Assembly (NCBI GenBank): GCA_938034445.1
Contig: CALHLD010000005.1
Location: forward strand, 62,001 to 126,000
Direction: 5' to 3'
Source of the DNA: an uncultured archaeon
Lineage (GTDB): Archaea; Thermoproteota; Nitrososphaeria; JACIWG01
Length of the DNA stretch: 64,000 nt
The position numbers and the translations under genes were made by a program. Below, piece by piece: positions 8,659-57,725 of the stretch (position 1 is the stretch's first letter; the number at the start of each line of letters is the position of its first letter). The notes under the pieces are model-generated. The model saw nothing but the letters and a program-made list of their open reading frames with translations. It had not been told where the DNA came from and did not search any database.

Positions 8659-8667
8659 GAGCAAGTT

Positions 8668-15436: not shown

Positions 15437-15454
15437 TCTGATAAAATTTTTCTG

Positions 15455-15489: not shown

Positions 15490-15516
15490 AGTAAATTTTA
15501 TTCTTTAAAGAGAATA

Positions 15517-21507: not shown

Positions 21508-21938
21508 ACTCTTCCACCCTCATGAGAAAAGTGCGGAATCCTTCTTCCATGAACACACTCACATGGATGTCCAAGTTTTGAGCACATGGCATAAACAACT
21601 GTGTCATCGATTTCCTCCATCAAAGACGCCTGGCAGCAAGCATTCTCATTATCTAGCTCAAGAAATTTAGAAAGGTATGTTTCAATAATCCTATGTCTAA
21701 AAACAATTCTTTCAGCCACCCTTATTCCTTTTTCAGTTAACTTAATTGGCCCCCAAGGTTTCCTGTAAACGAGCTCCATTTCCTCAAGCTTTTTTACAAC
21801 CTCGACAGCTGTAGGCATCTTAACTCCAGCCATCATTGCAAGCTCGCCACTAGTGACCTCACCCTGCTCTTCAACAGTTTTCATGTATATTCTTCTCAAA
21901 TATGTTCTCATTTGCTTCGAATACTTTAAATTAGGCAC
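21504..21938 (-). CDS. DtxR/MntR-type metal-dependent repressor
   Basis: 144 residues if started at the GTG at 21938, or 135 from ATG 21911. N-terminal winged helix (about 10-65: YLRRIYMKTVEEQGEVTSGE, then KMPTAVEVVKKLEEMELV), dimerisation domain with metal ligands (Cys/His/Glu in NENACCQASLMEEI and SKLGHPCECVHGRRIP). The C-terminal SH3-like domain of DtxR is lacking, as in MntR. First gene of the metal-importer operon; two palindromes in its promoter (21931-21961) look like its own operator, so it would autoregulate and shut off uptake when metal is plentiful. Confidence 0.88.
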   Translation of the reverse strand: MPNLKYSKQMRTYLRRIYMKTVEEQGEVTSGELAMMAGVKMPTAVEVVKKLEEMELVYRKPWGPIKLTEKGIRVAERIVFRHRIIETYLSKFLELDNENACCQASLMEEIDDTVVYAMCSKLGHPCECVHGRRIPHFSHEGGRV

Positions 21939-42238: not shown

Positions 42239-42252
42239 AGTTGCATCCAATT

Positions 42253-43308
42253 CTATTTAATATACCCCATTTTATAGAGGAGTTCCGCTGTAAGAATCGC
42301 GTTCCCCGCTGCACCCCTTATAGTATTGTGACTTAGCACAGTAAACTGGAGTGAATATTCGTCCAATCCTCTCCTCACTCTTCCAACAACAACGCTCATA
42401 CCTGGAACGGAACCTGAATCCCTATCCCTCCTAGGCTGTGGCCTATCATTTTCTTCTCTTACTATTATCGGATTTTCTGGTGCTGATGGAAGCTTAAGCT
42501 CCTGAGGTACGCCCTTGAATTCTCTTAAAACTCCTTTAGCCTCATCAACATTAACCTTCTTCTCAGTCTCTATATAAACGCACTCTAGATGTCCATCTAT
42601 TACGGGAACACGATTGCATGAAGCAGCAACCATCATATCGTTTTCCAAAATAACTCCATTCTGGAATCTACCTAAAATCTTTCTAGTTTCCCTAGCAACT
42701 TTTTCTTCCTCATCCTTAATATATGGTATAACGTTATCGATGATTAGAAGGCTGGGTACACCAGGATAACCTGCACCGCTTACAGCCTGCATTGTCGTAA
42801 CAAAAACTTTCTTAACATTATATGCTTCATCTAAAGGTTTTAAGGCTACAGCGAGGCCTGTTGTTGTACAGTTTGGGCCTGTTACAATAAAACCGTTCCA
42901 ACCACGTTCCCTTCTTTGCCTTTCAATAATCTTAATATGTTCAGAATTGAGTTCAGGTATTATTATGGGCACATCGCTTTCCATTCTATATGCACTAGTA
43001 TCGCTTACTACAGGATATTTTTGTGCAAATTTTCCTTCAACTTCTCTTGCAACTTCAGAGGGTAAGCAGCTAAAGAACAAGTCTGCACTCTGTCTTTCGG
43101 GTTCAATTTCGCTTACGATAACCTCTTTAACTTTTGATGGCGGATCATATGATCCAACCCACTCTACAGCTTCACCAAATTTTTTTCCAGCCGAACGTTT
43201 ACCCATTAAAAGAGAGATCTCAAACCAAGGATGTTTTTCAAGTAACCTAATATATTGTTGGCCTACCATTCCTGTAGCTCCCATTATGGCCACATTTAAC
43301 TTACCCAT
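42253..43308 (-). CDS. asd: Aspartate-semialdehyde dehydrogenase
   Basis: 351 residues, archaeal/fungal type ASADH. NADP-binding GATGMVGQQYIRLLE (8-24), nucleophile cysteine in GPNCTTTGLAVALKP (about 144), and VGRVRRGLDEYSLQF near the end. It reduces aspartyl phosphate to the semialdehyde, the branch point for threonine and methionine. It starts from a promoter with a TATA-like stretch near 43340-43352, 38 bases upstream; aspartate kinase follows in the same message. Confidence 0.93.
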   Translation of the reverse strand: MGKLNVAIMGATGMVGQQYIRLLEKHPWFEISLLMGKRSAGKKFGEAVEWVGSYDPPSKVKEVIVSEIEPERQSADLFFSCLPSEVAREVEGKFAQKYPVVSDTSAYRMESDVPIIIPELNSEHIKIIERQRRERGWNGFIVTGPNCTTTGLAVALKPLDEAYNVKKVFVTTMQAVSGAGYPGVPSLLIIDNVIPYIKDEEEKVARETRKILGRFQNGVILENDMMVAASCNRVPVIDGHLECVYIETEKKVNVDEAKGVLREFKGVPQELKLPSAPENPIIVREENDRPQPRRDRDSGSVPGMSVVVGRVRRGLDEYSLQFTVLSHNTIRGAAGNAILTAELLYKMGYIK

Positions 43309-43463
43309 TGCCTCACCATTGCCTCTTTTCTCCTAAAATAGTTTTTTATATACTTTTGCGTTCCTTAAAATGATCATAATATTAAAATTTTTTAAATTTT
43401 TTTGAAATTTTATGTCAAAAGATATTGCAGTAAAATGTTAAATATTCCCTCTAATTCTACTGG

Positions 43464-44807
43464 TTGGAGTTGAAAGTTAGAGCATATCTTAAATGTATAA
43501 TTCCAAGCTGTGGCAAACGTTATCCTATAGAAACTACAAGAACTTTTTGTGATTGTGGTAATCTTCTGGATGTAGTTTATGAAGGAAGTTTCACAAAGTC
43601 CCTAATCGAAGTTTTCTATGAAAGAAGGAATCATGAAAACAATATTTTTAATGAAAGTGGTGTATGGCGTTTTAGGGAGCTCATAAACTTTACTGGAACT
43701 GATTCTGAAGCTTACGATGAATATAGTAAAGTTTTTGTTTCATTTGATGGTGCTGAAGGAAGAACAAGACCATATGAGATGACCAAGGTTGCTGAATACG
43801 TTGGCATGCCAAAGGAGAACGTCCTTTTCCAGCCAGAGGGCCTTAATCCAAGTGGCTCATTCAAGGATAATGGTATCGCCACCGGTTTAACTCACGCGAA
43901 AATGCTTGGTGTAAAGGAAGTTATATGTGCTTCTACGGGGAATACTTCTGCTTCTGTAGCAATGTATGCTGCAAATGAGGGTATAAAGGCAAGCATTTAT
44001 GTTCCTAAGGATGAAATCGCATTGGGAAAGTTGGCTCAAGCTTTCCAGTTTAATGCATGCGTGTATCAGGTTATAGGTAATTTTGATGACGCGCTAAAAG
44101 TTGTTTTACAGAAGGGGCGGGAGGGTGCATATATTATGAATTCTGTTAACCCCTTTAGGCTTGAAGGCCAAAAGACCATGATATACAGGATGCTTGAATA
44201 CCTTAACTGGAATCCACCGGACTGGCTTGTTTTTCCAAGAGGCAATATGGGTAACTGTTCAGCCTTCGGAAAGGCAATAATGGAACTTTATGAATGGGGT
44301 TGGATAAAGAAGAAGCCAAGGTTTGTTGCAGTAGACGCTAAAGGCTCCAACACCTTCTACACTCTATACAATGGTCTCTATAATGGTGAACCATTAAGGT
44401 GGAATAATGGCAATGTTAATGAAGACCTAATTAAAGATTATTATTCCTACTTGGACAAGAATAATTTAAAGCCTAAGACTATTGCAACAGCAATACAAAT
44501 TGGTAGGCCGGTAAACATAAAGAAGGGGCTAAGGAGTCTCGAGTACACAAATGGTATAAGTGTACAAGTTGAGGATAAGGATATGGAGGACGGTATAGCT
44601 GTTGTTGGAAGTAATGGATTTGATTGTGAACACGCTTCAGCCTCATGTGTAGCTGCAATAAAAAAGCTAGTTGAAGAAGAGATAATAAAAAAGGATGATA
44701 AGGTTGTAGCAATATTGACTGGAAGGCTAAAGGATCCGGATGCAATGATAAAATATCATCTTGGAAATAACAGGTTTTCTAATCCTCCTAAAATAGTAAG
44801 GATATAA
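43464..44807 (+). CDS. thrC: Threonine synthase
   Basis: 447 residues, PLP fold II. N-terminal zinc-ribbon-like CIIPSCGKRYP and FCDCGNLLDVVY, then GLNPSGSFKDNG with the PLP lysine, the CASTGNTSAS phosphate/amino-acid loop and the FPRGNMGNCSAFGKA segment. It turns O-phosphohomoserine into threonine. Start is a TTG (43464) about 25 bases after a TATA element (TTAAATATT, 43438-43446), so leaderless; TTG 43470 is an alternative. Convergent with homoserine kinase (one-base gap), and the pair with asd and aspartate kinase covers the whole pathway from aspartate except homoserine dehydrogenase. Confidence 0.92.
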   Translation: MELKVRAYLKCIIPSCGKRYPIETTRTFCDCGNLLDVVYEGSFTKSLIEVFYERRNHENNIFNESGVWRFRELINFTGTDSEAYDEYSKVFVSFDGAEGRTRPYEMTKVAEYVGMPKENVLFQPEGLNPSGSFKDNGIATGLTHAKMLGVKEVICASTGNTSASVAMYAANEGIKASIYVPKDEIALGKLAQAFQFNACVYQVIGNFDDALKVVLQKGREGAYIMNSVNPFRLEGQKTMIYRMLEYLNWNPPDWLVFPRGNMGNCSAFGKAIMELYEWGWIKKKPRFVAVDAKGSNTFYTLYNGLYNGEPLRWNNGNVNEDLIKDYYSYLDKNNLKPKTIATAIQIGRPVNIKKGLRSLEYTNGISVQVEDKDMEDGIAVVGSNGFDCEHASASCVAAIKKLVEEEIIKKDDKVVAILTGRLKDPDAMIKYHLGNNRFSNPPKIVRI

Positions 44808-44808
44808 C

Positions 44809-45768
44809 TTAAAGATACTTAACTATTCTACAACCCTGTCCAGGTTTGGTGCAAATGTACGTAGCCTCATAGCCTTCTCTAGAAAATGCTGAACACATTT
44901 CTTCACCAATGTTATCTCCATCAACTTTGGTTAAATCGTAGAATGCAATCATACTTGGTCCAGCTCCACTAATTGTTACACCTAAAGCCCCTGCCATTAA
45001 AGCAGACTTTTTAACAGAATCGTATCCTGGAATAAGTTTTGACCTTGCTGGTTCAACAACTGCATCGCTTAGTGAACGTGCAAAAAGTTTTAGGTCCTTT
45101 GTTAAAATTGCTGCAACCAATGCTGAGGCATGGCCAACATTATGTACAAGCTTATCCAATTCTATAAGCTTAGGTATTACTGCACGAAACTGTTCAGTCT
45201 TTTTTTGGCCGTAAGAAATCTTCGGCGAAGCTACACATATTCCAAGATTTTCTGGAAGATCGAACCTTAGAACATCGATTGGATCATATGACCTTATAAG
45301 CGTAAACCCTCCTAAAAGTGATGCTGAAACATTATCTGCATGAGGCTTTCCAGCGGAAGCGACTTCTCCTTCAGCAGCATATTTTACAAGGCTATTCCTA
45401 TCTAAGTTCAATGAAAATAGTTCATTGATTCCATATGCCACAGCAGCGGCAGAAGCAGCGCTGCTACCTAGTCCCATTCCAACAGGCACACCCTTAACAA
45501 TCCTAATTTCAATATTATATGGTAGACTATAGTCTTTAACAAGCTTCTTTGCAACAACACCAGCAGTATTTCCGTCAACAATGTCTGGTATATTTCTGCT
45601 ATCTAATCCTTCAACAAAAACTTTTAGCCCCCCCTCCTCTTTCAAATAAATTGTGACCATATCTTTTGGAAACTCAACCGCTATTGCGAAAACGTCGAAT
45701 CCTGGTCCAACGTTTGCTGAAGAAGCCGGTGCCTCTACAACAATACCCCTACATTTTTTTAAACCCAT
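44809..45768 (-). CDS. thrB: Homoserine kinase (GHMP family)
   Basis: 319 residues. GHMP kinase motifs: VEAPASSANVGPGFDVFAIA, the ATP-binding VGMGLGSSAASAAAVAYG (near residue 95) and the C-terminal TISGAGPSMIAFYD. It phosphorylates homoserine for threonine synthase, whose gene converges on it with a one-base gap. Homoserine dehydrogenase is not in the window. Confidence 0.93.
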   Translation of the reverse strand: MGLKKCRGIVVEAPASSANVGPGFDVFAIAVEFPKDMVTIYLKEEGGLKVFVEGLDSRNIPDIVDGNTAGVVAKKLVKDYSLPYNIEIRIVKGVPVGMGLGSSAASAAAVAYGINELFSLNLDRNSLVKYAAEGEVASAGKPHADNVSASLLGGFTLIRSYDPIDVLRFDLPENLGICVASPKISYGQKKTEQFRAVIPKLIELDKLVHNVGHASALVAAILTKDLKLFARSLSDAVVEPARSKLIPGYDSVKKSALMAGALGVTISGAGPSMIAFYDLTKVDGDNIGEEMCSAFSREGYEATYICTKPGQGCRIVKYL

Positions 45769-45890
45769 ACTTTTCTCTTAAACCATCCCATTAATGGTCT
45801 ATTTAAAAATTTAATTCCCCAAACCATTTTTGAATACATGTTTAAGGAAAAATTATATTCTAGAATATAGACTATATTGTGGAGAAAGAA

Positions 45891-46346
45891 ATGGAAAAGA
45901 TTCTGGTTGCGTTTGATGGTTTAGAGGAAAGTAAGAAAGCGCTCTCAATTGCGCTAAAGCTAGCATCTTTCTTCGATAGTCATGTTACAATATTGAATGT
46001 TGCAGGCCAATCTGTTGTTCCAATAGTGCCGTCTTCACTATCATCCCATGTGGGTGAATCTCAGGGTGCAATTTATCCTTTACCTGAACATATAAGGGAT
46101 ATGATGGTTAAAGAGGCGATGAAAATACTTTCTGAAACAAAGGAGGATGTTGAAAAGGTGTGGAATAAACTGGATTTTGCAATAGTCTTCGGCGACCCAG
46201 CTTCAGAAATTATCAAGGAATCTCAAAAATCCTATGATCTAATAGTTATAGGCTACAGGAGTATACACTCTCCTATAATGTCGCTTGGAAATGTTGCTGA
46301 AAAGGTTGTGAAAAATGCTACATGCTCTGTTCTAGTAATAAGGTAA
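45891..46346 (+). CDS. Universal stress protein (UspA)
   Basis: 151 residues from ATG 45891, which has GGAG (45881-45884) at good distance; the GTG at 45879 lies over that site. UspA fold: ILVAFDGLEESKKALSIALKLA, and the nucleotide-binding end IVIGYRSIHSPIMSLGNVAEKVVKNATCSVLVI. The G-2x-G-9x-G(S/T) motif is only partly kept, so ATP binding is uncertain. Role: stress response of unknown type. Confidence 0.85.
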   Translation: MEKILVAFDGLEESKKALSIALKLASFFDSHVTILNVAGQSVVPIVPSSLSSHVGESQGAIYPLPEHIRDMMVKEAMKILSETKEDVEKVWNKLDFAIVFGDPASEIIKESQKSYDLIVIGYRSIHSPIMSLGNVAEKVVKNATCSVLVIR

Positions 46347-46350
46347 AAGT

Positions 46351-46794
46351 TTAGAAATTTTCCTTTATTGTCTGGAAAACTACACATGTTTGAGTCTTCT
46401 GTATTCCCCTCATCATCCTTAACCTGTCTATCACAAGTTTTCCTATTTCTTCAACAGACGCTGTTCTAACCTTCAAAATAATATCCCATTCACCAGAAAT
46501 AAGAGATACTTCATAAACTTCAGGTATTTTTGCTATTTCCTCAGCCAAATTCCTTTGAGAGAGGTTACTTTCTCCACTAAAGCTTACAAGGATAAATGCT
46601 GTAACACCCTTACCTATTTTCGAATAATCTGGTATTGCAGCAAACTTTCTTATAACCTTCTCCTTCATCAACTTTTTTATCCTCTCTTGAACTGTAGCCC
46701 TCGGAATGCCCAGCTCGTAGGCGATCTCAACTACAGACTTTCTTCCATTTTCTATCAGCTTCCACAAAATTTTCCAATCTTTTTCGTCCAACAT
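46351..46794 (-). CDS. Lrp/AsnC family transcriptional regulator
   Basis: 147 residues. N-terminal helix-turn-helix (5-50, with SVVEIAYELGIPRATVQERIKKL) and a C-terminal RAM/ACT-like domain (about 65-140) that binds an amino acid and forms octamers. It is divergent from the asparagine synthetase gene, and the shared interval holds an inverted repeat that is a good target for it. Confidence 0.9.
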   Translation of the reverse strand: MLDEKDWKILWKLIENGRKSVVEIAYELGIPRATVQERIKKLMKEKVIRKFAAIPDYSKIGKGVTAFILVSFSGESNLSQRNLAEEIAKIPEVYEVSLISGEWDIILKVRTASVEEIGKLVIDRLRMMRGIQKTQTCVVFQTIKENF

Positions 46795-46810
46795 TATGGC
46801 ATAATGCTAA

Positions 46811-46867
46811 ATTATAATAGTATATATAGTTTTTTATCAACTATATGCCAAAAACTATAGCATAATG
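46811..46867. promoter_or_regulatory. Lrp-type palindrome and TATA in the divergent lrp/asparagine synthetase interval
   Basis: ATATAGTT (46824-46831) and AACTATAT (46839-46846) form an 8-base inverted repeat over seven bases, and a further half-site AACTATAG (46853-46860) follows. The repeats sit between a TATA-like TATATATAG (46821-46829) and the ATG of asparagine synthetase at 46865. The nearby lrp gene (ATG 46794) would be the natural binder and would autoregulate as well. Confidence 0.55.
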
Positions 46868-47884
46868 TTTTTTAATAGTACTAAATCCGCATCCTCTTGC
46901 ATGCAGAAGAGGGAAATAGATTTGGAAATTGGCGAAGTAGATTTGCCTAAACCCCTAGAACAAATTTCTGGGAATGAAATTGAAAGAAAAATGTATATTG
47001 CTAAGGTTATGACAAAAACTTTAAGCTATCTTACCCAAACTTTCGTAGAAAATGGTTTTGAATGGCTACTTCCTGTAGTATTTTCTAAATCTACAGACCC
47101 TCTTTGGCCAGACCCTGGTGCCTCGATAGAAAAACGTATTGAAACAGAAGTTTATGGTGAGACGGTGAGGACAACTTTAAGCATGATTGTTCACAAGATT
47201 GTAGCCTCGTCTTTGGTTATGCCAAAACTTTTTACTCTCTCACCTAATGTTAGAGTTGAAAGGAGGGAGCGCCGTTTTACGGGGTGGCATCTTTATGAAT
47301 TCACTCAACTTGATTTTGAGATTCGGGGTGCAAGCTCTTCTGACGTTATATCTTTTGTAGACTCTATAATAAAGGGTTTAATATTCTATTTAAAGAAAAA
47401 TGCTAGGGAAGAATTGAAATATCTTAACGTTTATGATAATTTAAGAGTTCCAGAGCTGCCTTTGAAAGTTTATGATCGAATTTGGTTGGAGAAGAAGTAT
47501 GGACAAGAATGGGAGTCCATTTTCAAGCATGAAATTAGTGAGCCTTCATGGATCATAAACATTCCTAGAGAATTCTATGATTATGAAGACTTTTCTACAG
47601 GACAGTGGGATAACTATGACCTTATACTACCAAAATATGGTGAAGTACTCTCGGGGTCTAGAAGGGAATGGGAATACGATAAACTTTTAAAAAAGATGGA
47701 ACGTGATGGTGTTAGAAAAGAAAATTATCTACTTCTACTTAAACTTGCTAGAGAAGGCAAAATTAAGCCTTCAGCCGGAGCCGGTATTGGTGTTGAAAGG
47801 CTGGTGTGCTGGATTGTAGGCTCAAAGCATGTGGGAGAAGTTCAACTATTTCCAAAAATACCTGGAATTGTATACGACCTATAA
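46865..47884 (+). CDS. Archaeal asparagine synthetase A (asparaginyl-tRNA synthetase-related)
   Basis: 339 residues resembling the class II catalytic core of AsnRS/AspRS without the anticodon-binding domain, as in the archaeal asparagine synthetase described from Pyrococcus. Motif 2 segment FTGWHLYEFTQLDFEIRG, motif 3 region GAGIGVERLVCWIVG and SPNVRVERRERR are visible. It would make asparagine from aspartate, ATP and ammonia. The start ATG 46865 could instead be ATG 46901, 12 codons in. The lrp gene diverges just before it. Confidence 0.85.
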   Translation: MFFNSTKSASSCMQKREIDLEIGEVDLPKPLEQISGNEIERKMYIAKVMTKTLSYLTQTFVENGFEWLLPVVFSKSTDPLWPDPGASIEKRIETEVYGETVRTTLSMIVHKIVASSLVMPKLFTLSPNVRVERRERRFTGWHLYEFTQLDFEIRGASSSDVISFVDSIIKGLIFYLKKNAREELKYLNVYDNLRVPELPLKVYDRIWLEKKYGQEWESIFKHEISEPSWIINIPREFYDYEDFSTGQWDNYDLILPKYGEVLSGSRREWEYDKLLKKMERDGVRKENYLLLLKLAREGKIKPSAGAGIGVERLVCWIVGSKHVGEVQLFPKIPGIVYDL

Positions 47885-47933
47885 AAAAGGGTTTAGAAAA
47901 GCTTAAGAATACTATCTTGAATCAAATAATTTT

Positions 47934-48944
47934 ATGGTGTATAAGCCGAAGGCTATACTTCTATATTCTGGAGGACTTGACAGCACTCTAGCATTACATA
48001 TACTTGTATCCCAAAATATTGATGTTACCGCTTTAACGTTCATTACACCATTCTACAACTATAACCGTGAGTCAAAGATTTTCAAAAATATTATAGCTAC
48101 AGTTAACAAGTTTGGATGTAGGCTAAAGACCATTGATTTGCAGGAAGAATATTTACCTCTACTAAAGTCTCCGAAATATGGTTTCGGAAGTGCTGCAAAC
48201 CCATGTATTGATTGCAGAATATTGATGATGAAGTATGCAAAAAAGGTTATGGAAGAAGAAAAGGCAGATTTTATAGCAACCGGGGAAGTTTTAGGTCAAA
48301 GGCCATTCTCTCAAACAATAAGATGGCTAAAAAAGATTGATAGTGAAGCTGGAGTAGAGGGTCTTGTCCTTAGACCATTATCTGCAAAACTTCTTCCAAT
48401 AACAATTCCAGAAAAATTGGGTCTAGTTAATAGAGAAGCATTGTTTGGCATAAAGGGGAGATCTAGGAGGTTTCAACTAGATTTGGCTAAAAGATTTGAA
48501 ATAACTGGCTACCCCTCACCAGCAGGAGGCTGTATACTCACCGAACTAGCATTTAAAAGAAGGTTTGATGATTTAAAAAGGCATAATCCAAACTTTAGTT
48601 TCAAGGAAGTTATTCTATTAAAATTTGGAAGGCATTTTCGTTTAAATGATAGTGTAAAAGCTGTAATTGGAAGAAATAGAGATGAAAATGAAGAAATGCT
48701 TAAACATGCTGGTCCAGAAGATGTTATTTTTGAAGTCATAGACTATAAGGGTCCAGTTGGACTATATTTTGGAAATATAGAAGAAAGCTCACTTTTAAGA
48801 GCTGCCTCAATAATAGTCACCTACTCTAAGGCACCCAAAAATGTTCCGGTAAAGGTGCGATTTTATAACAGAATTGGTTTCGAAAAGATTATAGAATCTG
48901 AGGCAGCTTTACTCGAGTATGTGCACAATTTTTTGATAAAATAA
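47934..48944 (+). CDS. PP-loop ATPase, tRNA thiolation-like (MnmA/ThiI superfamily)
   Basis: 336 residues. The PP-loop YSGGLDSTLALHIL (10-24) binds ATP; paired cysteine motifs follow in GSAANPCIDCRILM and SPAGGCILTE, which suit sulfur handling. The remainder (from about 200) lacks a recognised RNA-binding domain. It resembles uncharacterised archaeal relatives of tRNA 2-thiouridylase. Which nucleotide or substrate is thiolated is unknown. Start is ATG at 47934, 49 bases after the asparagine synthetase. Confidence 0.72.
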   Translation: MVYKPKAILLYSGGLDSTLALHILVSQNIDVTALTFITPFYNYNRESKIFKNIIATVNKFGCRLKTIDLQEEYLPLLKSPKYGFGSAANPCIDCRILMMKYAKKVMEEEKADFIATGEVLGQRPFSQTIRWLKKIDSEAGVEGLVLRPLSAKLLPITIPEKLGLVNREALFGIKGRSRRFQLDLAKRFEITGYPSPAGGCILTELAFKRRFDDLKRHNPNFSFKEVILLKFGRHFRLNDSVKAVIGRNRDENEEMLKHAGPEDVIFEVIDYKGPVGLYFGNIEESSLLRAASIIVTYSKAPKNVPVKVRFYNRIGFEKIIESEAALLEYVHNFLIK

Positions 48945-48985
48945 CTTTATTCCCTCTATTGAATGGATGTTATCAAACTATTTCC

Positions 48986-49005
48986 TTTAATAGAATGTTA
49001 TTAAA
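48986..49005. terminator. Short hairpin upstream of the hydrogenase operon
   Basis: TTTAATA (48986-48992) and TATTAAA (48999-49005) pair over a six-base loop, flanked by TTTCC and GGAAA. It lies 41 bases after the PP-loop gene and may be a terminator for it. The 143-base gap otherwise holds only the hydrogenase promoter. Confidence 0.4.
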
Positions 49006-49036
49006 ATTGTAGGAAATTTTTAACAAAAATGTAGAT

Positions 49037-49080
49037 TTTATATACTGGTATCTAATATGGTTCTATCGGTGTACAGGGGA
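49037..49080 (+). promoter_or_regulatory. TATA element and ribosome binding site of the hydrogenase operon
   Basis: TTTATATA at 49037-49044 is 44-51 bases before the ATG at 49088, giving a start site near 49070. AGGGGA at 49075-49080 is seven bases before the ATG and serves as ribosome binding site. The following ten genes are all closely spaced or overlapping. Confidence 0.55.
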
Positions 49081-49087
49081 TTCAAGT

Positions 49088-49528
49088 ATGTTTTGCTCGT
49101 TAAAATGTTGGTCATTAAAACGTTCACTTTGGGCTTTCCACGTTAACACTGGTGGATGTAATGGCTGTGATATTGAAATACTAGACGCTTTCACTCCCCG
49201 CTATGATGTTGAACGTTTTGGTATACGGCTCGTGGGCACACCTAGACATGCTGATGTCTTAGTTGTTACAGGTCCTGTAAATTCGAAAACCGCCCAAAGG
49301 CTGCTAACAGTTTACGATCAAACACCTGACCCAAAGTTTGTAGTTGCTGTTGGAACTTGTGCTGCCACGGGAGGTATTTTCAAAGGTGCATATAATATAG
49401 TTGGTGGTGTAGACAATCTGGTGCCTGTTCATGCCTATGTAATAGGCTGTCCCGCAAGGCCTGAATCAATTATAGATGCTATAGCAGCCTTGATAGGGAA
49501 GATAGAAAAAGGTGATGTTAAAATATGA
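49088..49528 (+). CDS. Group 4 [NiFe]-hydrogenase small subunit (NuoB-like)
   Basis: 146 residues. The four cysteines of the proximal 4Fe-4S cluster are in NTGGCNGCDIEI (C24, C27), VGTCAATGG (C91) and IGCPARPE (C121). The stretch FTPRYDVERFGI and the run PRHADVLVVTGPV are typical of membrane-bound group 4 hydrogenase and NuoB/PSST subunits. It hands electrons between the NiFe site and the ferredoxin subunit. First gene of the eleven-gene operon; the stop overlaps the next start as ATGATG. Confidence 0.9.
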   Translation: MFCSLKCWSLKRSLWAFHVNTGGCNGCDIEILDAFTPRYDVERFGIRLVGTPRHADVLVVTGPVNSKTAQRLLTVYDQTPDPKFVVAVGTCAATGGIFKGAYNIVGGVDNLVPVHAYVIGCPARPESIIDAIAALIGKIEKGDVKI

Positions 49529-49995
49529 TGTCTGAGTCAATTAAAGAATTAATCCTATCATTGGATTCTAATGCGAAATTTAAGGACGGTAAAGATAATC
49601 GTTTATGGGTAGCTATAGAATCAGATAAATTGAAAATAGTACTAGAAAGATTAAAAGATAAGGGCTACAACTACATATCCGCTATCTCAGGTTTAGATCA
49701 AATCCAAAATGGAAAGATACTTCTCCTATATCATATAATGAATGATTCTCCAAGAGAATATCCATATATTACAATTAGAATCGAATTACCTCGAGAAGAC
49801 CCTAAAGTAAGCTCAATCCACGATATACTGCCAGGAGCATTGTTACATGAAAACGAAGTTTTTGACATGTTTGGTGTAAATTTTATAGGGCATCCTAACT
49901 TAGGTAGGTTACTCTTACCAGAAAACGTTAGAGGCGATGTCCACCCTCTTAAAAAAGACTTTAAGGATAGTGTTTATGAGGGGATGAAAAAATGA
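49525..49995 (+). CDS. Group 4 hydrogenase NuoC-like subunit
   Basis: 156 residues, homologous to NuoC/30-kDa subunit. Characteristic end: HENEVFDMFGVNFIGHPNLGRLLLPE and HPLKKDF. It supports the large subunit structurally on the cytoplasmic arm. Start overlaps the previous stop by four bases, and its own stop overlaps the next ATG by four. Confidence 0.88.
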   Translation: MMSESIKELILSLDSNAKFKDGKDNRLWVAIESDKLKIVLERLKDKGYNYISAISGLDQIQNGKILLLYHIMNDSPREYPYITIRIELPREDPKVSSIHDILPGALLHENEVFDMFGVNFIGHPNLGRLLLPENVRGDVHPLKKDFKDSVYEGMKK

Positions 49996-51191
49996 CATTT
50001 AACCTCTATTTTGGGCCATTTCATCCAGCCCTTAAGGAGCCTATAAACTTCACCTTTGAAGTAGAAGGGGAACAAATTGTTAACGTGAAACCTGCTCTCG
50101 GCTATAATCATAGAGGTCTTGAAAAGCTTCTTGAAACTAAAACATGGCTTCAGAGTGGTTTTGTAGCCGAACACATTTGCGGGATCTGTTCGGGTTCACA
50201 TAATGGATGTTGCTATCAGGGTGTTGAAAGAGTGTTTGGTATTGAGCCGCCAAAAAGAGGTTTGTATATTAGGACACTCGTTTGGGAGCTTGAAAGGATC
50301 CACAGCCACTTACTATGGCTTGGTGTAATGCTTCATGAAGCAGGATTTGACACACTATTTATGTATACTTGGAGGGACCGTGAACTAACTTTAGACCTAT
50401 TCGAGGAAATGAGTGGTAGAAGAGTTGTTTACAGTATGAATACTGTTGGTGGTGTAAGAAGGGATGTCACAGATTCATTTTTACAGAAGTTGAAAAAGTA
50501 TTGCGATTATTTGGAGGAAAGAACTAAATTTTATAAAAAGCTTGTATTGGAAGATTCAACAATATTAGCCCGTTTTCAGAATGTAGGTGTTTTATCAAAA
50601 AATGATGCCATAAGCCTTTCAGCTGTTGGTCCGGTTGCGAGGGCCTCTGGAGCTAAAAGGGATGTTAGATATGAAGAACCATATGCCGTCTATGACGAGT
50701 CACCTTACCAAATCGTGCTGGGCGAGGAAGGGGATGCTCTTGCTAAAACTATTGTTAGGATAGATGAAATGAAAGTGAGCCTTGACATTCTTAGATGGAT
50801 TGCTGACAACATTCCATCTGGAGATTATAGGATAAAATTTTCGCCTATGACAAAGGCACCTGAAAATGAGGCTATAAGTAGGATTGAAGCTCCAAGAGGA
50901 GAACTCTTCTATTATTTTAAATCAGAAGGCGGTACAACTCCAAGTCGGGTAAAGGTTAGGACACCTACCTTTGCTAATGTTCTTCCAGTTGTAAAAATGC
51001 TGGAAGGCCAGTATATTGCAGATATTCCTGTTATTGTTGCGTCAATTGATCCTTGTATAGCATGCTGTGAAAGAATTACCATTATTGATAAGGGTAAAGA
51101 GGGTGTTAAAATGATAACGGCGGACCAGCTAAGATCTTACGCGAAAAAATGGTATGAGGAAAAATATAAAGTTGAGAGGGGAAGAAAATGA
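49992..51191 (+). CDS. Group 4 [NiFe]-hydrogenase large subunit (NuoD homologue with intact NiFe cysteines)
   Basis: 399 residues. Both nickel-iron cysteine pairs are present: EHICGICSGSH (Cys63, Cys66) and IDPCIACCER (Cys355, Cys358), so the protein is predicted to bind the NiFe centre. Complex-I NuoD has lost these cysteines. Other family features: GPFHPALKEP at the N-terminus, RIHSHLLWLG, and GARG-like segments. There are about 38 residues after the second motif. The subunit evolves or consumes H2 with ferredoxin. Hyp maturation genes and a processing protease are not in the window. Confidence 0.92.
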   Translation: MTFNLYFGPFHPALKEPINFTFEVEGEQIVNVKPALGYNHRGLEKLLETKTWLQSGFVAEHICGICSGSHNGCCYQGVERVFGIEPPKRGLYIRTLVWELERIHSHLLWLGVMLHEAGFDTLFMYTWRDRELTLDLFEEMSGRRVVYSMNTVGGVRRDVTDSFLQKLKKYCDYLEERTKFYKKLVLEDSTILARFQNVGVLSKNDAISLSAVGPVARASGAKRDVRYEEPYAVYDESPYQIVLGEEGDALAKTIVRIDEMKVSLDILRWIADNIPSGDYRIKFSPMTKAPENEAISRIEAPRGELFYYFKSEGGTTPSRVKVRTPTFANVLPVVKMLEGQYIADIPVIVASIDPCIACCERITIIDKGKEGVKMITADQLRSYAKKWYEEKYKVERGRK

Positions 51192-51553
51192 AAAAGTGGG
51201 GGTATACGTATAAGGAGGCTCTTAAACGTTTATTTGGAAAACCTTATACAATCCATTATCCATTTACTGATATTAAAGCCTTTGAAGGATATCGAGGAAA
51301 AATATCCCTTAATGTAAACAAATGCACTGGCTGTAGTCTATGCTTTAGGGTATGTCCTGCAAGTGCAATTGAAATGGTTCCAGATGAAAGAGTTAAGCCG
51401 GCTAAGAGGAGACCTCATTTTAAACTTGCTGACTGCTGCTACTGTGCTTTATGTGCCGAATACTGTCCAACAGGCGCTATAAAATTAACTACAGACTACC
51501 ATTTATATGGTTTTGATAAAAGAGATGTCTCAGCTGAGGTGAAAAGTGAATGA
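51188..51553 (+). CDS. Ferredoxin-type subunit (NuoI-like)
   Basis: 121 residues with two 4Fe-4S motifs: CTGCSLCFRVCP (C46, C49, C52, C56) and CCYCALCAEYCP (C83, C86, C89, C93). It carries electrons from reduced ferredoxin to the small subunit. Overlaps the large-subunit stop by four bases; the same type of overlap with the next gene. Confidence 0.92.
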   Translation: MKKWGYTYKEALKRLFGKPYTIHYPFTDIKAFEGYRGKISLNVNKCTGCSLCFRVCPASAIEMVPDERVKPAKRRPHFKLADCCYCALCAEYCPTGAIKLTTDYHLYGFDKRDVSAEVKSE

Positions 51554-51852
51554 GCTCTATGGCTGAGCTCTTTTACACGCTAATAATACTATTTATATTC
51601 TCATCACTACTATACTTTTCTGGAAAATCGTTAAAGAGGGTGAATAAAAATCCTTTTGCTTCTGGGGAAATGGTTTTCCCTCAAAGAGTTCAATATCTAC
51701 TCCCTTGGCTCTTTTCACTAATTGCTTTCATAGCAGTTGATGCCACTGTGCTATTGATAGTAGTTTCGGCTTCTACAGTAAATATTGTAACAATAGCATG
51801 CCTAGCATTAGTCGTATTAAGCTTTTTATTAATTCCCTGGAGTGAGAGATGA
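51550..51852 (+). CDS. NuoA-like membrane subunit
   Basis: 100 residues with three hydrophobic segments. The layout (helix, then cytoplasmic KNPFASGEMVFPQRVQY, then two helices with an aspartate in IAVDATVLLIV) matches NuoA/ND3, where the acidic residue lies in the second helix, although the usual YECG and PWA motifs are weak. Position next to NuoH supports the call. Confidence 0.7.
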   Translation: MSSMAELFYTLIILFIFSSLLYFSGKSLKRVNKNPFASGEMVFPQRVQYLLPWLFSLIAFIAVDATVLLIVVSASTVNIVTIACLALVVLSFLLIPWSER

Positions 51853-51853
51853 T

Positions 51854-52816
51854 ATGATGGCGGCCTATATTATTTTAGCAGTCGTCCTTTTTATGATACT
51901 TTCATTGATACTGGAGTGGGTGGATAGAAAAGTGTATGCTCACGTTCAGCATAGGGTCGGCCCGTTTGTAGCAGGCTATCACGGAATCCTTCAACCAGTA
52001 GCAGACTTATTGAAATTGATGAATAAGGATGAAGTTGTAGTTGAGGGTAGTGATGAGCAGCTTTTACATCTTATGCCAATTTTGTCTTTAACTTTTGTTC
52101 TGTTTTCTCTACTTTTTGTTCCAGTAGCCTCTGTAGAGGGGTTACTTAGCTTCAAAGGCGACTTAATAATAATATTGGCGTTTTCCGTATTAATTCATCT
52201 GTTTTATATTGTAACAGGTCTTTCTCAGCGGAGTATTTTTGCGTCAGTCGGTGCAGCGAGGTGGGGTCAGCTTCTTATATCGTTCGAAATTCCACTCTTG
52301 ATATCTGTTGCTTCTGTAGCTCTCGTTGCAAATTCGGTAACCTTGTCAGAAATAGTGTCATTTCAATCAAATAGTTTTCCAATTATACTATTGAGTCCAC
52401 TATCATTCATTGCAGCAGTTTTTGCAAGTTTAGCGAAGATTGAAAAGACACCATTCAGTGTGCCTGATGCTGAAACGGAGATAGCGGGTGGATGGCTTTC
52501 GGAAATAAGTGGTAGAAGGCTAGCTATATTTAGAATAGTTACTGACTTAAAATATCTTTTACTATCGGCTTTAATAGTCACGCTTTTCTTAGGAGGGCCA
52601 TTGGGTCCAACAGTTAGTGGTATTGAACCATTATTATCCGTCTTCTGGTTTTTGGTGAAGTTAGTGTTTGTAGCGATTCTATTGAGTTATGTGAGGGGGA
52701 TTGTGGCCAGATACAGAATTGACCAGGTTATAAGGTTCTTTTGGTTCAAGATAACTCCTTTAGCTGCTGTTAACTTGATCGTCTTAATTTTTCTGCGTAT
52801 GGGTAAGGTGATCTAG
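51854..52816 (+). CDS. NuoH-like membrane subunit
   Basis: 320 residues from ATG 51854 (a GTG at 51842 is in frame, overlapping the previous gene further). Eight or so helices. NuoH hallmarks: LEWVDRKVYAHVQHRVGPFVAGYHGILQPVADLLKL (part of residues 14-50) and the cytoplasmic KTPFSVPDAETEIAGGWLSEISGRRLA loop. It links the hydrogenase arm to the ion-pumping arm. Stop and next start are adjacent. Confidence 0.92.
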   Translation: MMAAYIILAVVLFMILSLILEWVDRKVYAHVQHRVGPFVAGYHGILQPVADLLKLMNKDEVVVEGSDEQLLHLMPILSLTFVLFSLLFVPVASVEGLLSFKGDLIIILAFSVLIHLFYIVTGLSQRSIFASVGAARWGQLLISFEIPLLISVASVALVANSVTLSEIVSFQSNSFPIILLSPLSFIAAVFASLAKIEKTPFSVPDAETEIAGGWLSEISGRRLAIFRIVTDLKYLLLSALIVTLFLGGPLGPTVSGIEPLLSVFWFLVKLVFVAILLSYVRGIVARYRIDQVIRFFWFKITPLAAVNLIVLIFLRMGKVI

Positions 52817-53071
52817 ATGATGTTAGAAGTGGTTCAAATTATTGTCTCCCTTCTAATAATAGTTTCTGCATTAATGGTGACTGAAGTGAGAGGATTGGTT
52901 AGAATGGCGTTGTCTTTCTCTATAATGAGTGCTTTAATAGCAATCTTGTTCATAACACTTTCAGCAACATATGCTGGTGTCTTTCAATTAGCGATTTACG
53001 CTGGCTTTATTCCCATAATAATTTTAGTTACTGTAGCATTGACCAGAGGAGGTGAAGATGTTGGAGACTGA
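52817..53071 (+). CDS. NuoJ-like membrane subunit, N-terminal half
   Basis: 84 residues, three helices; matches the first part of NuoJ/ND6, including the LAIYAGFIPIIILVTVAL helix that is the conserved pi-bulge region. The rest of NuoJ is encoded by the next gene, so the subunit is split in two. Starts directly after NuoH without spacing; ends 14 bases past the next start. Confidence 0.78.
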   Translation: MMLEVVQIIVSLLIIVSALMVTEVRGLVRMALSFSIMSALIAILFITLSATYAGVFQLAIYAGFIPIIILVTVALTRGGEDVGD

Positions 53072-53324
53072 ACGGTTGGTTGGAAGTTTACTTGCCCTGA
53101 TCCTAATATTACTTTTGTTTTCTATACTCTCCAGATACGATTTTGCTGCAGGCATCACAGAAAGAGATGATTTAAAGACTAGATTAGGTTTTGGAGACCT
53201 AGACCTAAAATCGCTTGATATGATCTGGAATGAACGTGTAATAGACACACTAGTGCAGTCAATTCTGGTTTTCGCATCGGTTTCCGCGGTTTCTTTGGTG
53301 TTTAAGGGGTGGTTAAAGGAATGA
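53058..53324 (+). CDS. NuoJ-like C-terminal or MbhE-type membrane subunit
   Basis: 88 residues from ATG 53058, which has GGAGGTG at 53047-53053; an upstream in-frame GTG at 53052 lies over that site. One hydrophobic helix at each end with a charged middle (LKTRLGFGDLDLKSLD). It probably is the second part of the split J subunit, as in Mbh-type hydrogenases and antiporter complexes. The exact homologue is uncertain. Confidence 0.65.
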   Translation: MLETERLVGSLLALILILLLFSILSRYDFAAGITERDDLKTRLGFGDLDLKSLDMIWNERVIDTLVQSILVFASVSAVSLVFKGWLKE

Positions 53325-53641
53325 GTTCCATACCCATAACATTCCAATTGGGAGTCGCCTTCTCAATCTTTATCATAGGCTTGTACATTCTTCTAGCTAA
53401 AAAGAATATATTGAGGATAATATTAGGGATTGAGACTATGCTTTCTGGATGCAACATTGCCATAATCTCGATTGGAAGTAGGCTTGCTCAAAATGGAGTT
53501 GACCCTTTAGCGCAATCAATAGTTATAATATCTATTGCTATTGGCGCAGGAGTTGTTGCTCTGGCAGTGTCTCTTTCAGTTCTTGCATATAGGAGATTTG
53601 GTACGTTAGATATAACTAAATTAAGTGAGTTAAGGGGGTGA
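53321..53641 (+). CDS. NuoK/MnhC-like membrane subunit
   Basis: 106 residues from ATG 53321, which overlaps the previous stop (ATGA). Three helices with a LLAKKNILRIILGIETMLSGCNIAIISIG stretch (part) matching NuoK and MnhC, including the conserved glutamate in GIETML that is a proton-pathway residue. GTG 53309 is an alternative start. Confidence 0.88.
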   Translation: MSSIPITFQLGVAFSIFIIGLYILLAKKNILRIILGIETMLSGCNIAIISIGSRLAQNGVDPLAQSIVIISIAIGAGVVALAVSLSVLAYRRFGTLDITKLSELRG

Positions 53642-53647
53642 AATTGT

Positions 53648-55552
53648 ATGGGTCTAGTACTTGAAGGTTGGCTTGTTTGGATTTTGCCTCTGACACTCTC
53701 ATTTGCAGCCTTTTTTATCTCAAAAGTTAATAGAATTTCCTCACATATTGTGGCTATAGCTTCGCCATTTTCTTCTCTAGTCTGTGCTTTATTACTCTTA
53801 AATAATGTGCTTTCAGGAGCGTTTTCACTGCCTTTTGAACAAAGCATTGGATGGCTTGCTGGGCAAGGATTATACATTGAGATTGGAATTCTTCTGGACC
53901 AGTTAAGTCTGATAATGCTTTTGGTTGTAGCCTTTATATCAACTCTCATATTCATATTCAGTGTAGATTATATGAAGGAAGAACAGGATATTGGTAGATA
54001 CTGGTTTTGGATGTGCTTTTTTATAGGTTCGATGCAAATGCTTATCATATCCAACAACTTTATCCAAATGTTAATGGGCTGGGAAATGGTTGGACTTTGT
54101 AGCTGGGCTTTGATATCTTTCTGGTATAAGTCTAGGGCTCCTAGTCCTGAACCGGGATTCTTGACCGAAGGTGAATATAATGCTCACTGTGGCCTTAAAG
54201 CGCTTATAACCACAAGCTTTGCCGATCTCTTTTTCATTGCTGCAATAGCTATGGTCGCTTGGACCACCTACTTAGCTACAGGAAATGTAACGTTTAACTT
54301 TATTAAGCTTTCAGAAAACTTTTCATGGATCGGTGTGCTCAATACAGCTGGAATTCTACCAATATTTGCTCTTTTCCTTCTATCAGGTTCGCTTGGAAAA
54401 AGCGCTCAATTCCCCTTTAATGAATGGTTGCCGGAAGCGATGGCGGGTCCAACAACTGTTAGCGCACTAATACATGCTGCTACCATGGTTAAGGCTGGAT
54501 GCTATTTTGTAGCAAGATTCTTTACAATAGTATGGGAAGCTTTACCCGTTTACCCTGAAATCAAGATATTTTTCTGGCTAGCTTTAGGCTTAGGTGCTTT
54601 CACAGCTTTTTTAGCGGCTACACAAGGAATGGTTGCTAAAGAGCTTAAAAAAGTACTTGCCTTTTCCACGATCAGCCAGCTTGGTTACATTTTTGTTGCA
54701 CTAGGTGCCGCTGGCGTTCTGCTTTCGTGGGAAGCCTTCACCGCTGGCATACTGCATATAGTTTCTCATGCAATATTTAAGGCCCTATTATTCCTTTGTG
54801 CGGGAGCCATCTTACACGTAACTCACACAAAGTATATGAATGAAATGGGAGGCCTAAAGGGTGTCATGCCTATTACCTACTTGACAATGCTCATAGGCGC
54901 ATTCTCACTTTCCGGTATTCCACCATTTTCAGGTTTCTTCAGCAAAGACGAAATACTTTCGACTGTGGCCGGCCTTAACTGGATTGTATACGCTATTCTA
55001 GCTTTAACTGTAGCTTTAACAACTTTCTATACATTTAGAATGGTAGGAATTGTATTTTTTGGAAACAAAAGCCCACATGTAATAAAGCTTGAAGAAGAAG
55101 GTAAAAAACTTCACGAGGCAGGACCAATTATGATTATACCACTCACAATTTTAGCCTTTCTAACACTGTTTATTTGGCTTTTCTATCCTAACATAATAGG
55201 CTTCCTTGTCGGATACGATGAAGCATTACATATTGACCTTCTAAGTTTTCTCAACAAGACTTTTACCTCTATATCCTTCATGATATCAATTGCAATGGTC
55301 ATCGTAGGCCTATATCCGGCTTATAAAGTCTATATTACTAGAGCTATTATTCCAGAAAAAATAACAGTCCCCAAACTATATAACATAATATATAATAGAT
55401 GGTACTGGAACCACGTATACTACTGGTTGGCTGAAAAGATTAAACTGTTTGCTGAAAGAATTAGATATATTCAAACAGGTGTTTCAAATGTTAATGTTGC
55501 ATATGTGGTTACTGGTGCCATCGTGTTCCTTATAATATTGATAATATTATAG
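53648..55552 (+). CDS. NuoL/MnhA-like antiporter-type subunit
   Basis: 634 residues with about sixteen hydrophobic helices. Proton-antiporter motifs: LMGWEMVGLCSWALI, FPFNEWLPEAMAGPTTVSALIHAATMVKAG and GYIFVALGAAG, with lysines and glutamates in membrane helices. The C-terminal extension (about 490-634) contains a long amphipathic stretch like the lateral helix of NuoL. GGGGTGAA precedes the ATG by a few bases. It would pump H+ or Na+ using redox energy. Confidence 0.93.
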   Translation: MGLVLEGWLVWILPLTLSFAAFFISKVNRISSHIVAIASPFSSLVCALLLLNNVLSGAFSLPFEQSIGWLAGQGLYIEIGILLDQLSLIMLLVVAFISTLIFIFSVDYMKEEQDIGRYWFWMCFFIGSMQMLIISNNFIQMLMGWEMVGLCSWALISFWYKSRAPSPEPGFLTEGEYNAHCGLKALITTSFADLFFIAAIAMVAWTTYLATGNVTFNFIKLSENFSWIGVLNTAGILPIFALFLLSGSLGKSAQFPFNEWLPEAMAGPTTVSALIHAATMVKAGCYFVARFFTIVWEALPVYPEIKIFFWLALGLGAFTAFLAATQGMVAKELKKVLAFSTISQLGYIFVALGAAGVLLSWEAFTAGILHIVSHAIFKALLFLCAGAILHVTHTKYMNEMGGLKGVMPITYLTMLIGAFSLSGIPPFSGFFSKDEILSTVAGLNWIVYAILALTVALTTFYTFRMVGIVFFGNKSPHVIKLEEEGKKLHEAGPIMIIPLTILAFLTLFIWLFYPNIIGFLVGYDEALHIDLLSFLNKTFTSISFMISIAMVIVGLYPAYKVYITRAIIPEKITVPKLYNIIYNRWYWNHVYYWLAEKIKLFAERIRYIQTGVSNVNVAYVVTGAIVFLIILIIL

Positions 55553-55565
55553 GAGGTGCCATATC

Positions 55566-57134
55566 ATGCTATCAAATGATCTAATATTGGTGTGCGCGAT
55601 TTTCTTACCTTTAGTCGGTGCCGTTTCTGTCACTGTTGTTGGAAAAATTAGGGAAAACGTTAAAGTTATAGGCGCAATATCCTCTATCTTTCTCTTTACA
55701 ACCTTAAGTTTAGCATTTTATCTACTCTATTTTGTAATAGGCATTCAGGAAGGGAAACCTATTGTCTTATTCCCACTGAGAACTCCTAATGCTACTTGTT
55801 TCGTAGTTGATGGATTGTCTGCAGTTGTAGCGGTAGTCTTCTCTTTTATCTCCTCTACTGCCTCCCTATACAGTATCGGGTACTTAAAAGAAGTTCATGC
55901 TACAAGAATCACCCAATATTATATAGCACTACAAGTTTTAACCACCGCTTTAAACGGTATCGCGTACAGTGGAGACCTATTTACCCTATTCATATTCACT
56001 GAACTGTGTCTGTTGTCAGCTGTCACTTTAGTCGCATTTTACAGGAGCAAGGAATCTGTTGAAGCCTCAATTAAGTACCTTGTTATGGGTAGTGTAGGTG
56101 CTGCCTGCATATTAATGGCTGTTGCTCTTATATATGGCGTGACTGGAACACTTAACATAGCTTTAGCCGCCTCAATACTTAGAGAGCTTGCTAAAAACCC
56201 ACTAATGGCTCCAACCCTCACATTAATATTTTGCCTTCTACTGGTAGGATTCGGTGTTGAATCAGCGATGGTGCCATTGCATTCATGGCTTATTGATGCA
56301 CATCCCGCAGCCCCCTTCCCAATCCATGGTTTTCTTTCTGGAGCAGTTATTAAGAGTGGAATTTATGCTTTCATTAGAACCGGCTACTACTTTTTCACCT
56401 CAAGTTCGATGGAGTGGTCTCTTGATGTAAGTGTTATCCTCTTTTTAATTGCCATGGCAACAATAACTTTGCCAAATTTAATCGCTCTAAGACAGACAGA
56501 TGTTAAGAGGTTACTTGCATACTCAAGCATATACAATATGGGTGTAGTGGTTGCCGGTATAGCAGTAGGCACACCTTTCGGTTTAGCGGCGGCATTATTC
56601 CATATAATTAATCACGCTATTGTAAAAGCTGGTGCCATGATGACTGCTGGAGACTTTTATGTGACAACACATACAAGAAACTTATTAGAACTTAAGGGTA
56701 TTGCAAGAAAAATGCCAGTAAGTGGAGTCCTTTTCTCACTTAACAGTCTTTCTTTAGCAGGTTTGCCACCATTAAATACTTTCTACAGCAAACTACTTGT
56801 AATAATTGCATGCTTTTCTTTGCTAACTAAAAATGCGCCCGTTGCCGTAAAGGTGTTAGGTGCGATGACAGGATTAGTACTTGTAGTTAATGCCGTTATC
56901 TCAATAGGCTACTATATAGCAATACTTGTAAGATATACATGGATGTCTGAGGAAACGGAGAAGGTGAAAAATGTTATGAGAGAAGCTCCACCGACTATGA
57001 TTTTGGGTCTAATTTTATTGCTATCGGTAGCAATAGCAGTTTCTCTAGCACCTTTCCTATTCTTTGACTGGATATCAAAAATAATAGAATCTTTCATGGA
57101 CATAGAGTCATACAAGAGAGCCGTACTAGGCTAG
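55566..57134 (+). CDS. NuoM/NuoN-like antiporter-type subunit
   Basis: 522 residues, about fourteen helices. FTELCLLSAVTLVAFYRSKESVEASIKYLVMG, MVPLHSWLIDAHPAAPFPIHGFLSGAVIKSG and TDVKRLLAYSSIYNMG are the NuoM/N-type antiporter motifs, with the lysine in AVIKSG. AGGAGGTG precedes the ATG at 55566 by eight bases. It is the last gene of the operon; with the NuoL subunit there are two antiporter-like subunits, fewer than complex I (three). Confidence 0.92.
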   Translation: MLSNDLILVCAIFLPLVGAVSVTVVGKIRENVKVIGAISSIFLFTTLSLAFYLLYFVIGIQEGKPIVLFPLRTPNATCFVVDGLSAVVAVVFSFISSTASLYSIGYLKEVHATRITQYYIALQVLTTALNGIAYSGDLFTLFIFTELCLLSAVTLVAFYRSKESVEASIKYLVMGSVGAACILMAVALIYGVTGTLNIALAASILRELAKNPLMAPTLTLIFCLLLVGFGVESAMVPLHSWLIDAHPAAPFPIHGFLSGAVIKSGIYAFIRTGYYFFTSSSMEWSLDVSVILFLIAMATITLPNLIALRQTDVKRLLAYSSIYNMGVVVAGIAVGTPFGLAAALFHIINHAIVKAGAMMTAGDFYVTTHTRNLLELKGIARKMPVSGVLFSLNSLSLAGLPPLNTFYSKLLVIIACFSLLTKNAPVAVKVLGAMTGLVLVVNAVISIGYYIAILVRYTWMSEETEKVKNVMREAPPTMILGLILLLSVAIAVSLAPFLFFDWISKIIESFMDIESYKRAVLG

Positions 57135-57168
57135 CGGGAGCAAAAATATCTATAAAATAAAATTATTC

Positions 57169-57174
57169 TTTTTT
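57169..57174 (+). terminator. T-run after the hydrogenase operon
   Basis: A run of six T at 57169-57174 lies 35 bases after the last stop codon. It may terminate the operon. There is no hairpin. The rest of this 180-base gap is AT-rich; the TATA element AATTTATAAC for the next gene is at 57281-57290, about 29 bases upstream of its ATG. Confidence 0.35.
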
Positions 57175-57314
57175 ACATACTTTAGGTTAAAGTATACATC
57201 CACAACATTTTATTGCCATTATTATTAATTCACGATCTATTTTTGTGAATAATATCGACTGCCCTCTGCTCTGGACAAAAAATTTATAACCCATAGCTAT
57301 TCTCACCAAATGAT

Positions 57315-57725
57315 ATGTCAGAAGAATACTGTTTTGTAAAAGATTTAAATGAAACTACTGTCTATCGGTTGACGAAACCTGATGGCTGTAATAGGACTGT
57401 GACAATATTGCTCGATAAAGATGATGGTGTAAAAAATGTCTCTATGGGCATGTGTATTATAGATCCACAGAGTAAGATACCATTTCATACTCATGAAAAT
57501 GAGGAGGAAATAATGTATGTGTTGGATGGTGAAGGTGTTTTCAAAATTGGTGATTCAGAAAAAAGGATAAGTGAAGGCTCAATATTATTCGCTCCACCAA
57601 AGGTTGGTCATCAGATAATAAATACGAGCGATAAAAAGCTGCAATTTATTTTCGTGTATAGTCCGGCTGGCCCTGAACAGAATATTAAAAAGGTAGGTCA
57701 AGCTATAGGTACTATGAAAAAGTAA
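57315..57725 (+). CDS. Cupin-domain protein
   Basis: 136 residues, single cupin barrel. Motif 1 FHTHENEEEIMYVLDGEG and motif 2 FAPPKVGHQI carry the histidine/glutamate metal set. Function unknown; similar to the cupin at 5623 in length and motif, but not a close copy. TATA element 29 bases upstream suggests a leaderless mRNA. Converges with the TIM-barrel gene by 14 bases. Confidence 0.85.
   Translation: MSEEYCFVKDLNETTVYRLTKPDGCNRTVTILLDKDDGVKNVSMGMCIIDPQSKIPFHTHENEEEIMYVLDGEGVFKIGDSEKRISEGSILFAPPKVGHQIINTSDKKLQFIFVYSPAGPEQNIKKVGQAIGTMKK

Follow-up and report, generated by a model that had tools for sequence, protein, structure and literature searches.

A compact [NiFe] hydrogenase operon that has likely taken the chromosomal place of another, resident operon in an uncultured archaeon

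The window considered here is a stretch of 64,000 nucleotides (positions 62,001 to 126,000 of contig CALHLD010000005.1) from the genome of an uncultured archaeon of the Thermoproteota, designated G000, which comprises 1.8 Mb in 56 contigs and is 95% complete with 3.7% estimated contamination. Between positions 49088 and 57134 of the window lies an eleven-gene operon, noticed in an earlier reading of the sequence alone, for a hydrogenase with a complex-I-like membrane arm; all of its open reading frames (ORFs) are confirmed, lie on the + strand, and overlap or nearly do so. The homologues of NuoB, C, D, I, A, H, J (split), K, L, and M/N named in that sequence-only reading are borne out by library matches, alignments, and position, the genes being identified through Pfam/NCBIfam profile library searches of the ORF translations, as follows:

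49088..49528, + strand: small subunit, NuoB/MbhJ type (PRK06411, 9e-46; PF01058; alignment with Escherichia coli NuoB and relatives)
49525..49995, + strand: NuoC/MbhK-type subunit (PF00329, NuoC/Complex1_30kDa, 1.5e-28)
49992..51191, + strand: large catalytic subunit, carrying the two NiFe cysteine pairs and a tail (NuoD/Complex1_49kDa, 1.1e-72)
51188..51553, + strand: NuoI-type 2x[4Fe-4S] ferredoxin subunit (TIGR01971, 1e-25; alignment)
51550..51852, + strand: divergent NuoA-type small membrane subunit (operon position; alignment to NuoA of E. coli and to the Njordarchaeal and Asgard homologues)
51842..52816, + strand: NuoH-type membrane subunit (PF00146, NADHdh, 2e-76)
52817..53071, + strand: split NuoJ, piece 1, MbhD-like (PRK06638, 1e-08)
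53052..53324, + strand: split NuoJ, piece 2, in MbhE-like position (motif common to NuoJ C-terminal halves)
53309..53641, + strand: NuoK/MrpC-type subunit (PF00420, Oxidored_q2, 9e-22; alignment)
53648..55552, + strand: NuoL-type antiporter subunit (PRK06590, 2e-135; residue check)
55566..57134, + strand: NuoM/N/MrpD-type antiporter subunit (PF00361, Proton_antipo_M, 6e-61)

The gene order is B-C-D-I-A-H-J-J-K-L-N, and the eleven genes amount to ten subunit types because NuoJ is split in two and only two antiporters are present. The small subunit carries cluster ligands of the hydrogenase/Fpo type (CNGC...GTC...GCP), and the NuoI-type subunit keeps all eight of its eight cysteines in the alignment. 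No Pfam/NCBIfam model matched the NuoA-type gene or the second NuoJ piece, and a PDB sequence search with the latter came back empty; this piece shares an LWxxRxIDxLxQ-type motif with the NuoJ C-terminal halves of its Njordarchaeal/Asgard and genus-mate homologues. The best PDB match of the first piece, a weak one (E=0.013), is chain D of Mbh (6cfw_D). Among the operon genes, the library searches detected neither NuoEFG nor FpoF/O nor the Mrp Na+ module.

The large subunit keeps Cys63/Cys66 and Cys355/Cys358 intact, as first reported, within EHICGICSGSH and DPCIACCER, and phmmer alignments bring both pairs into register with the Ni cysteines of MbhL from Pyrococcus furiosus (6cfw, 1.5e-86) and HycE from E. 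coli (7z0s). The protein also satisfies the L1 (C[GS][ILV]C[AGNS]xxH) and L2 ([DE][PL]Cx[AGST]Cx[DE][RL]) patterns as defined in PMC7886697. After DPCIACCER it continues into a C-terminal tail of 38 residues, and among about 80 homologues the L2 motif DPCxxC co-occurs with such a tail of 23-47 residues, the exception (L064) being cut by a contig end or trimmed; homologues without the cysteines have no tail and end at DR or the equivalent place. Tails of this kind are removed by Ni-dependent maturation proteases, as HycI does for HycE in E. coli. The HycE tail aligns homologously with that of the window protein, and the MbhL chain in 6cfw stops at DPCLSCTDR. An AlphaFold2 model of the large subunit reached a predicted local distance difference test (pLDDT) score of 87.4, and its top two PDB matches in Foldseek are HycE and MbhL, with complex I subunits close behind. 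Residue 61 of the window protein is His (EHICGIC), a position taken by Arg or Lys in all compared relatives that have the motif, and its L2 reads CCER in place of C-x-DR. The large-subunit phylogeny that had been proposed as a check clusters the protein with cysteine-bearing hydrogenases and not with FpoD/NuoD (100/100), among archaeal homologues that include those of Bathyarchaeota. A large-subunit match at E <= 1e-115 occurs in 57 of 300 Thermoproteota-level genomes (the same phylum), and the complex therefore belongs to a widespread kind.

The genomic setting of the operon was compared among relatives of the same genus (g1; G001-G003) and of the same family (G004). In G001, G003, and G004, a different operon occupies the chromosomal site of the window operon, ordered in G003 as A-B-C-D-H-I-J-J-K followed by three antiporters; the idea that the genus-mates are devoid of NuoA was rejected, as NuoA sits before NuoB in G003. 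A DNA-level comparison of the window with the G003 locus (L119) delimits the following features:

48949..57313, no strand assigned: interval replaced relative to G003 (blastn of window against L119; junction alignments)
46865..48944, + strand: upstream flank with an asparagine synthetase A-like gene (87% protein identity to G003) and a ThiI-like gene (80%)
57315..57725, + strand: downstream flank, cupin gene (83% identity to G003, 75% to G001)

The replaced interval extends slightly beyond the borders originally drawn around the operon. Homology between the window and G003 is continuous over 40908-48948 at 86%, ends 4 bp past the stop codon of the ThiI-like gene, and restarts at 57314, the cupin start codon, at 83%; these junctions, at 48.9 and 57.3 kb, are read from a single assembly of the G000 species. 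Protein identity in the flanks is 80-95% to G003 and 74-91% to G001, and the operon proteins are 28-57% identical between the window and G001/G003; by this comparison both flanks are vertically inherited. The contig of G001 stops just upstream of its operon, and its comparison covers the downstream flank only; in G004, the downstream flank is inverted relative to the window. Downstream flank DNA identity is highest between the window and G003 (84%, against 78% for window and G001 and 79% for G003 and G001), which makes G003 the closest relative of the window genome. Between the operons of G001 and G003 the identity is 83%, and between those of G004 and G003 about 69-72%. Together, these operon and flank identities indicate that the three-antiporter operon is inherited in the family and that the compact operon is derived, or new, in G000. 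No large-subunit match was found in G002, which is uninformative on the locus because the ThiI-like marker gene is likewise missing from its assembly.

The phylogenies, rooted by midpoint or by chosen outgroups, place the window operon elsewhere. In the large-subunit tree it groups with Njordarchaeota/Asgard (support 100/99), and after more Thermoproteota were added, family f25 (G060, G081) enters this clade (99/96). A constraint joining the window to its genus- and family-mates is rejected by the approximately unbiased (AU) test (p = 0.0002; 0.001 with the added Thermoproteota), and the trees of the B, H, K, and L subunits give the same grouping. Large-subunit identity to the window is 46-49% for the family-mates and 57% for the Njordarchaeotal/Asgard proteins. 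The gene order of the window also recurs, as far as the contigs run, in G060 (L157) and the Njordarchaeal L006, where it is noted as B-C-D-I-A-H-J-(J)-K-L-N and where the L006 contig ends within L. Trees and gene order therefore point to some carrier of the compact clade as the donor. Njordarchaeota as the sole donor was weakened as a candidate, since f25 also falls in the clade and G060 shares the gene order; the Njordarchaeal/Asgard loci have no genes in common with the immediate flanks of the window. A mosaic origin of the NuoJ pieces was likewise set aside, the BLAST scores being weak with no clear side and the adjoining H and K grouping with Njordarchaeota. Same flanks, non-sister content, and tree conflict, the marks of xenologous displacement in situ, are thus found together at this locus.

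G000 encodes no antiporter subunits besides the two of the membrane arm, a search for a third elsewhere in the genome having found none. The NuoL-type subunit keeps the E, K, H, K ion-path residues of NuoL. In the M/N-type subunit (55566..57134), the lysine of transmembrane helix 7 (TM7), nearly universal among the homologues compared, is replaced by glutamate; the other exceptions are a glutamate in G060 (L157) and two f4 genomes (L120, L121), an asparagine in one L042 protein, and, in the window's own family, a serine in the resident operon (L117-L119). The NuoK-type subunit has the first membrane glutamate and is missing the second (E72 of E. coli NuoK), as are related hydrogenases.

The Hyp genes and maturation protease that the sequence-only reading had proposed to look for are present in G000, as HypA, C, D, E, F and a HycI-type protease. 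One locus encodes HypC, HypD, HypE, and HypF, the last at least as its C-terminal half, and L002 on contig C3 encodes a second [NiFe] hydrogenase, which is sulfhydrogenase-like (group 3 type) and has a flavoprotein subunit. On contig C2, at L070, hypA is followed by a MinD/Mrp-type ATPase, an arrangement which we take to resemble the HypA-ATPase pairing of Thermococcales; no model match over the cut-off was obtained for HypB in G000. Because the second hydrogenase needs them too, these genes support but do not prove maturation of the operon's own complex. Three PF01558 loci of the 2-oxoacid:ferredoxin oxidoreductase type are also found in G000.

Two further gene sets lie elsewhere in the window. 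A corrinoid methyltransferase set at 6125-16641 includes an MtaB-like methanol:corrinoid methyltransferase (8668-10017; 9e-141), a corrinoid protein (8011-8658), two MtaA/UroD-type proteins, and an AcsV-type corrinoid activation protein. At 18889-21938, 27 kb upstream of the operon, lie a metal-type ABC transporter and a DtxR-like regulator, whose homologues, in the same order, directly adjoin the hydrogenase operon of Njordarchaeal/Asgard loci (L005, L007); this transporter could serve nickel, zinc, or manganese supply, or its presence could be coincidence.

On balance, the operon most likely encodes an Hfo-like, ferredoxin-linked, H2-forming [NiFe] ion pump that was acquired horizontally and displaced the resident operon in situ. 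Electrons from reduced ferredoxin would enter at the I subunit through its two clusters, move on to the cluster of the B subunit, and reach the NiFe site in the large subunit, where protons would be reduced to H2; the H-A-J-K-L-M/N arm would couple this reaction to outward ion movement through its two antiporter modules. A lineage with the compact type would have passed the two-antiporter operon on by horizontal transfer, and this would have displaced the resident three-antiporter operon at the same site after the split from G003. A ferredoxin-dependent, H2-forming ion pump had already been proposed from the sequence, and this proposal fits the gene content, given the two 4Fe-4S clusters of the I subunit, the lack of NuoEFG/FpoF, and the three PF01558 loci. 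The gene content, the cysteines and tail, the maturation genes, the number of antiporters in the genome, the in-place difference, and the conflicting trees are read directly from sequence; direction and pumping, together with catalysis, electron donor, ion, stoichiometry, and exchange route, are inferred.

Several observations weigh against this interpretation. G000 and its family-mates are draft assemblies, apparently metagenome-derived, and the trees of the C and I subunits, which are short or divergent sequences, give the window's place no starred support. The two junctions have no shared words of >=10 bases and no repeat or mobile element, and the search for a donor turned up nothing above 57% large-subunit identity. 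The TM7 exchange of Lys for Glu in the M/N-type subunit could impair one pump module. Moreover, no Hfo or 4g complex is known to have been studied biochemically.

The same occupancy of the site would arise without late transfer, and with no transfer scar left to see, if the family ancestor had held both operons side by side, G000 later losing the three-antiporter operon and G001, G003, and G004 the compact one. Such a history is improbable: both operons would have to be kept since before the split of G004 and then undergo at least two parallel losses, yet no family genome is seen with both (each, G000 included, has a single large-subunit match or locus of the operon's family), and no remnant of the other operon was found beside either type. 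Less probable still, by a clear step, is that a foreign operon was falsely joined into the contig during assembly. The draft state of G000 and its estimated contamination leave some room for this, but two false joins would be required, both falling precisely on a gene border and on the position homologous to the native operon, in a contig whose flanks are host-type on both sides and a genome whose assembly has no separate native operon elsewhere; the operon has a GC content of 38.8% against 36.7% for the window, with GC at third codon positions (GC3) near the host range.

Group 4 hydrogenases are reversible, and in vivo the membrane potential might drive ferredoxin reduction by H2, which is the direction argued for Hfo in acetogenic Bathyarchaeia, as opposed to H2 formation (PMC7886697); the methanol:corrinoid methyltransferase-type genes of the window also allow a metabolism that may not be purely fermentative. 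This is the most serious of the alternatives, though an unlikely one, as the three 2-oxoacid:ferredoxin oxidoreductase loci suggest a fermentative supply of ferredoxin. It is very doubtful that the complex is no hydrogenase at all and serves another acceptor, as Fpo-like complexes do, with the NiFe site kept in sequence. The deviant L1 histidine and the CCER of L2 speak for that possibility; against it stand the four cysteines and the cleavable-type tail, all intact, the HycI-type protease in the genome, and the position of cysteine-free relatives on a separate side of the tree.

Among known systems, the closest described one is Hfo, the Fpo-like 11-subunit [NiFe] hydrogenase of Bathyarchaeia assigned to subgroup 4g (Loh, Herve and Brune 2021, PMC7886697), and the basic find is to that extent already known. 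Relatives of Hfo occur in Ca. Methanomethylicus and Pyrodictium, and the same study points out that 4g enzymes have yet to be characterised (PMC7886697); a study of Culexarchaeia infers that 4g enzymes make H2 in a ferredoxin-dependent manner (PMC9723716). By its relatedness to the published Hfo, the window hydrogenase probably belongs to 4g. Both have complex-I/Fpo-like subunits, the NiFe cysteines, and a single gene cluster, with no NADH/F420H2 input module; Hfo has three antiporters (L, M, N), whereas the window operon has two, a split NuoJ, and its own gene order. Being one antiporter short of the strict definition of Hfo, the window operon is filed as a two-antiporter variant, and the operon of its genus-mates matches the description better. 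Mbh of P. furiosus (group 4d, 6cfw) is the best large-subunit sequence match and a top fold match; unlike Mbh, the window operon has no Mrp-type Na+ module genes and instead carries NuoL-type and M/N-type antiporters and NuoA. HycE of FHL-1 (group 4a, 7z0s) is the top Foldseek match and has the homologous tail, but the window operon contains no formate dehydrogenase and its membrane arm is different. With Fpo and complex I, the window operon has in common the membrane arm and the peripheral B, C, D, and I subunits; FpoD and NuoD, however, are without the cysteines and the tail that the window large subunit has.

What is new here, and the most distinctive feature, is the apparent replacement of one operon by a different one at the same chromosomal site. 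In xenologous gene displacement in situ (Omelchenko 2003, cited in PMC1274311), foreign homologues occupy the place of native genes; at the present locus, a whole membrane-complex operon would have been swapped, with a different subunit number and gene order. The literature searched yielded nothing on Njordarchaeota with group 4 hydrogenases or on displaced energy-converting hydrogenase operons. Hfo-like hydrogenases, some with two pump modules and some with three, are discussed as a bridge from simple hydrogenases to complex I. The locus warns that hydrogenase trees can depart from species trees even when the neighbouring genes are conserved. Tentatively, and with somewhat less than even confidence, complex-I-like H2 pumps may be swapped between archaea as a cassette at a fixed site, the pump modules here going from three to two and the energy conserved per H2 being altered. 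Two close species, with 84% identical flanking DNA and with two- and three-module versions at the same locus, represent a natural swap experiment for coupling stoichiometry.

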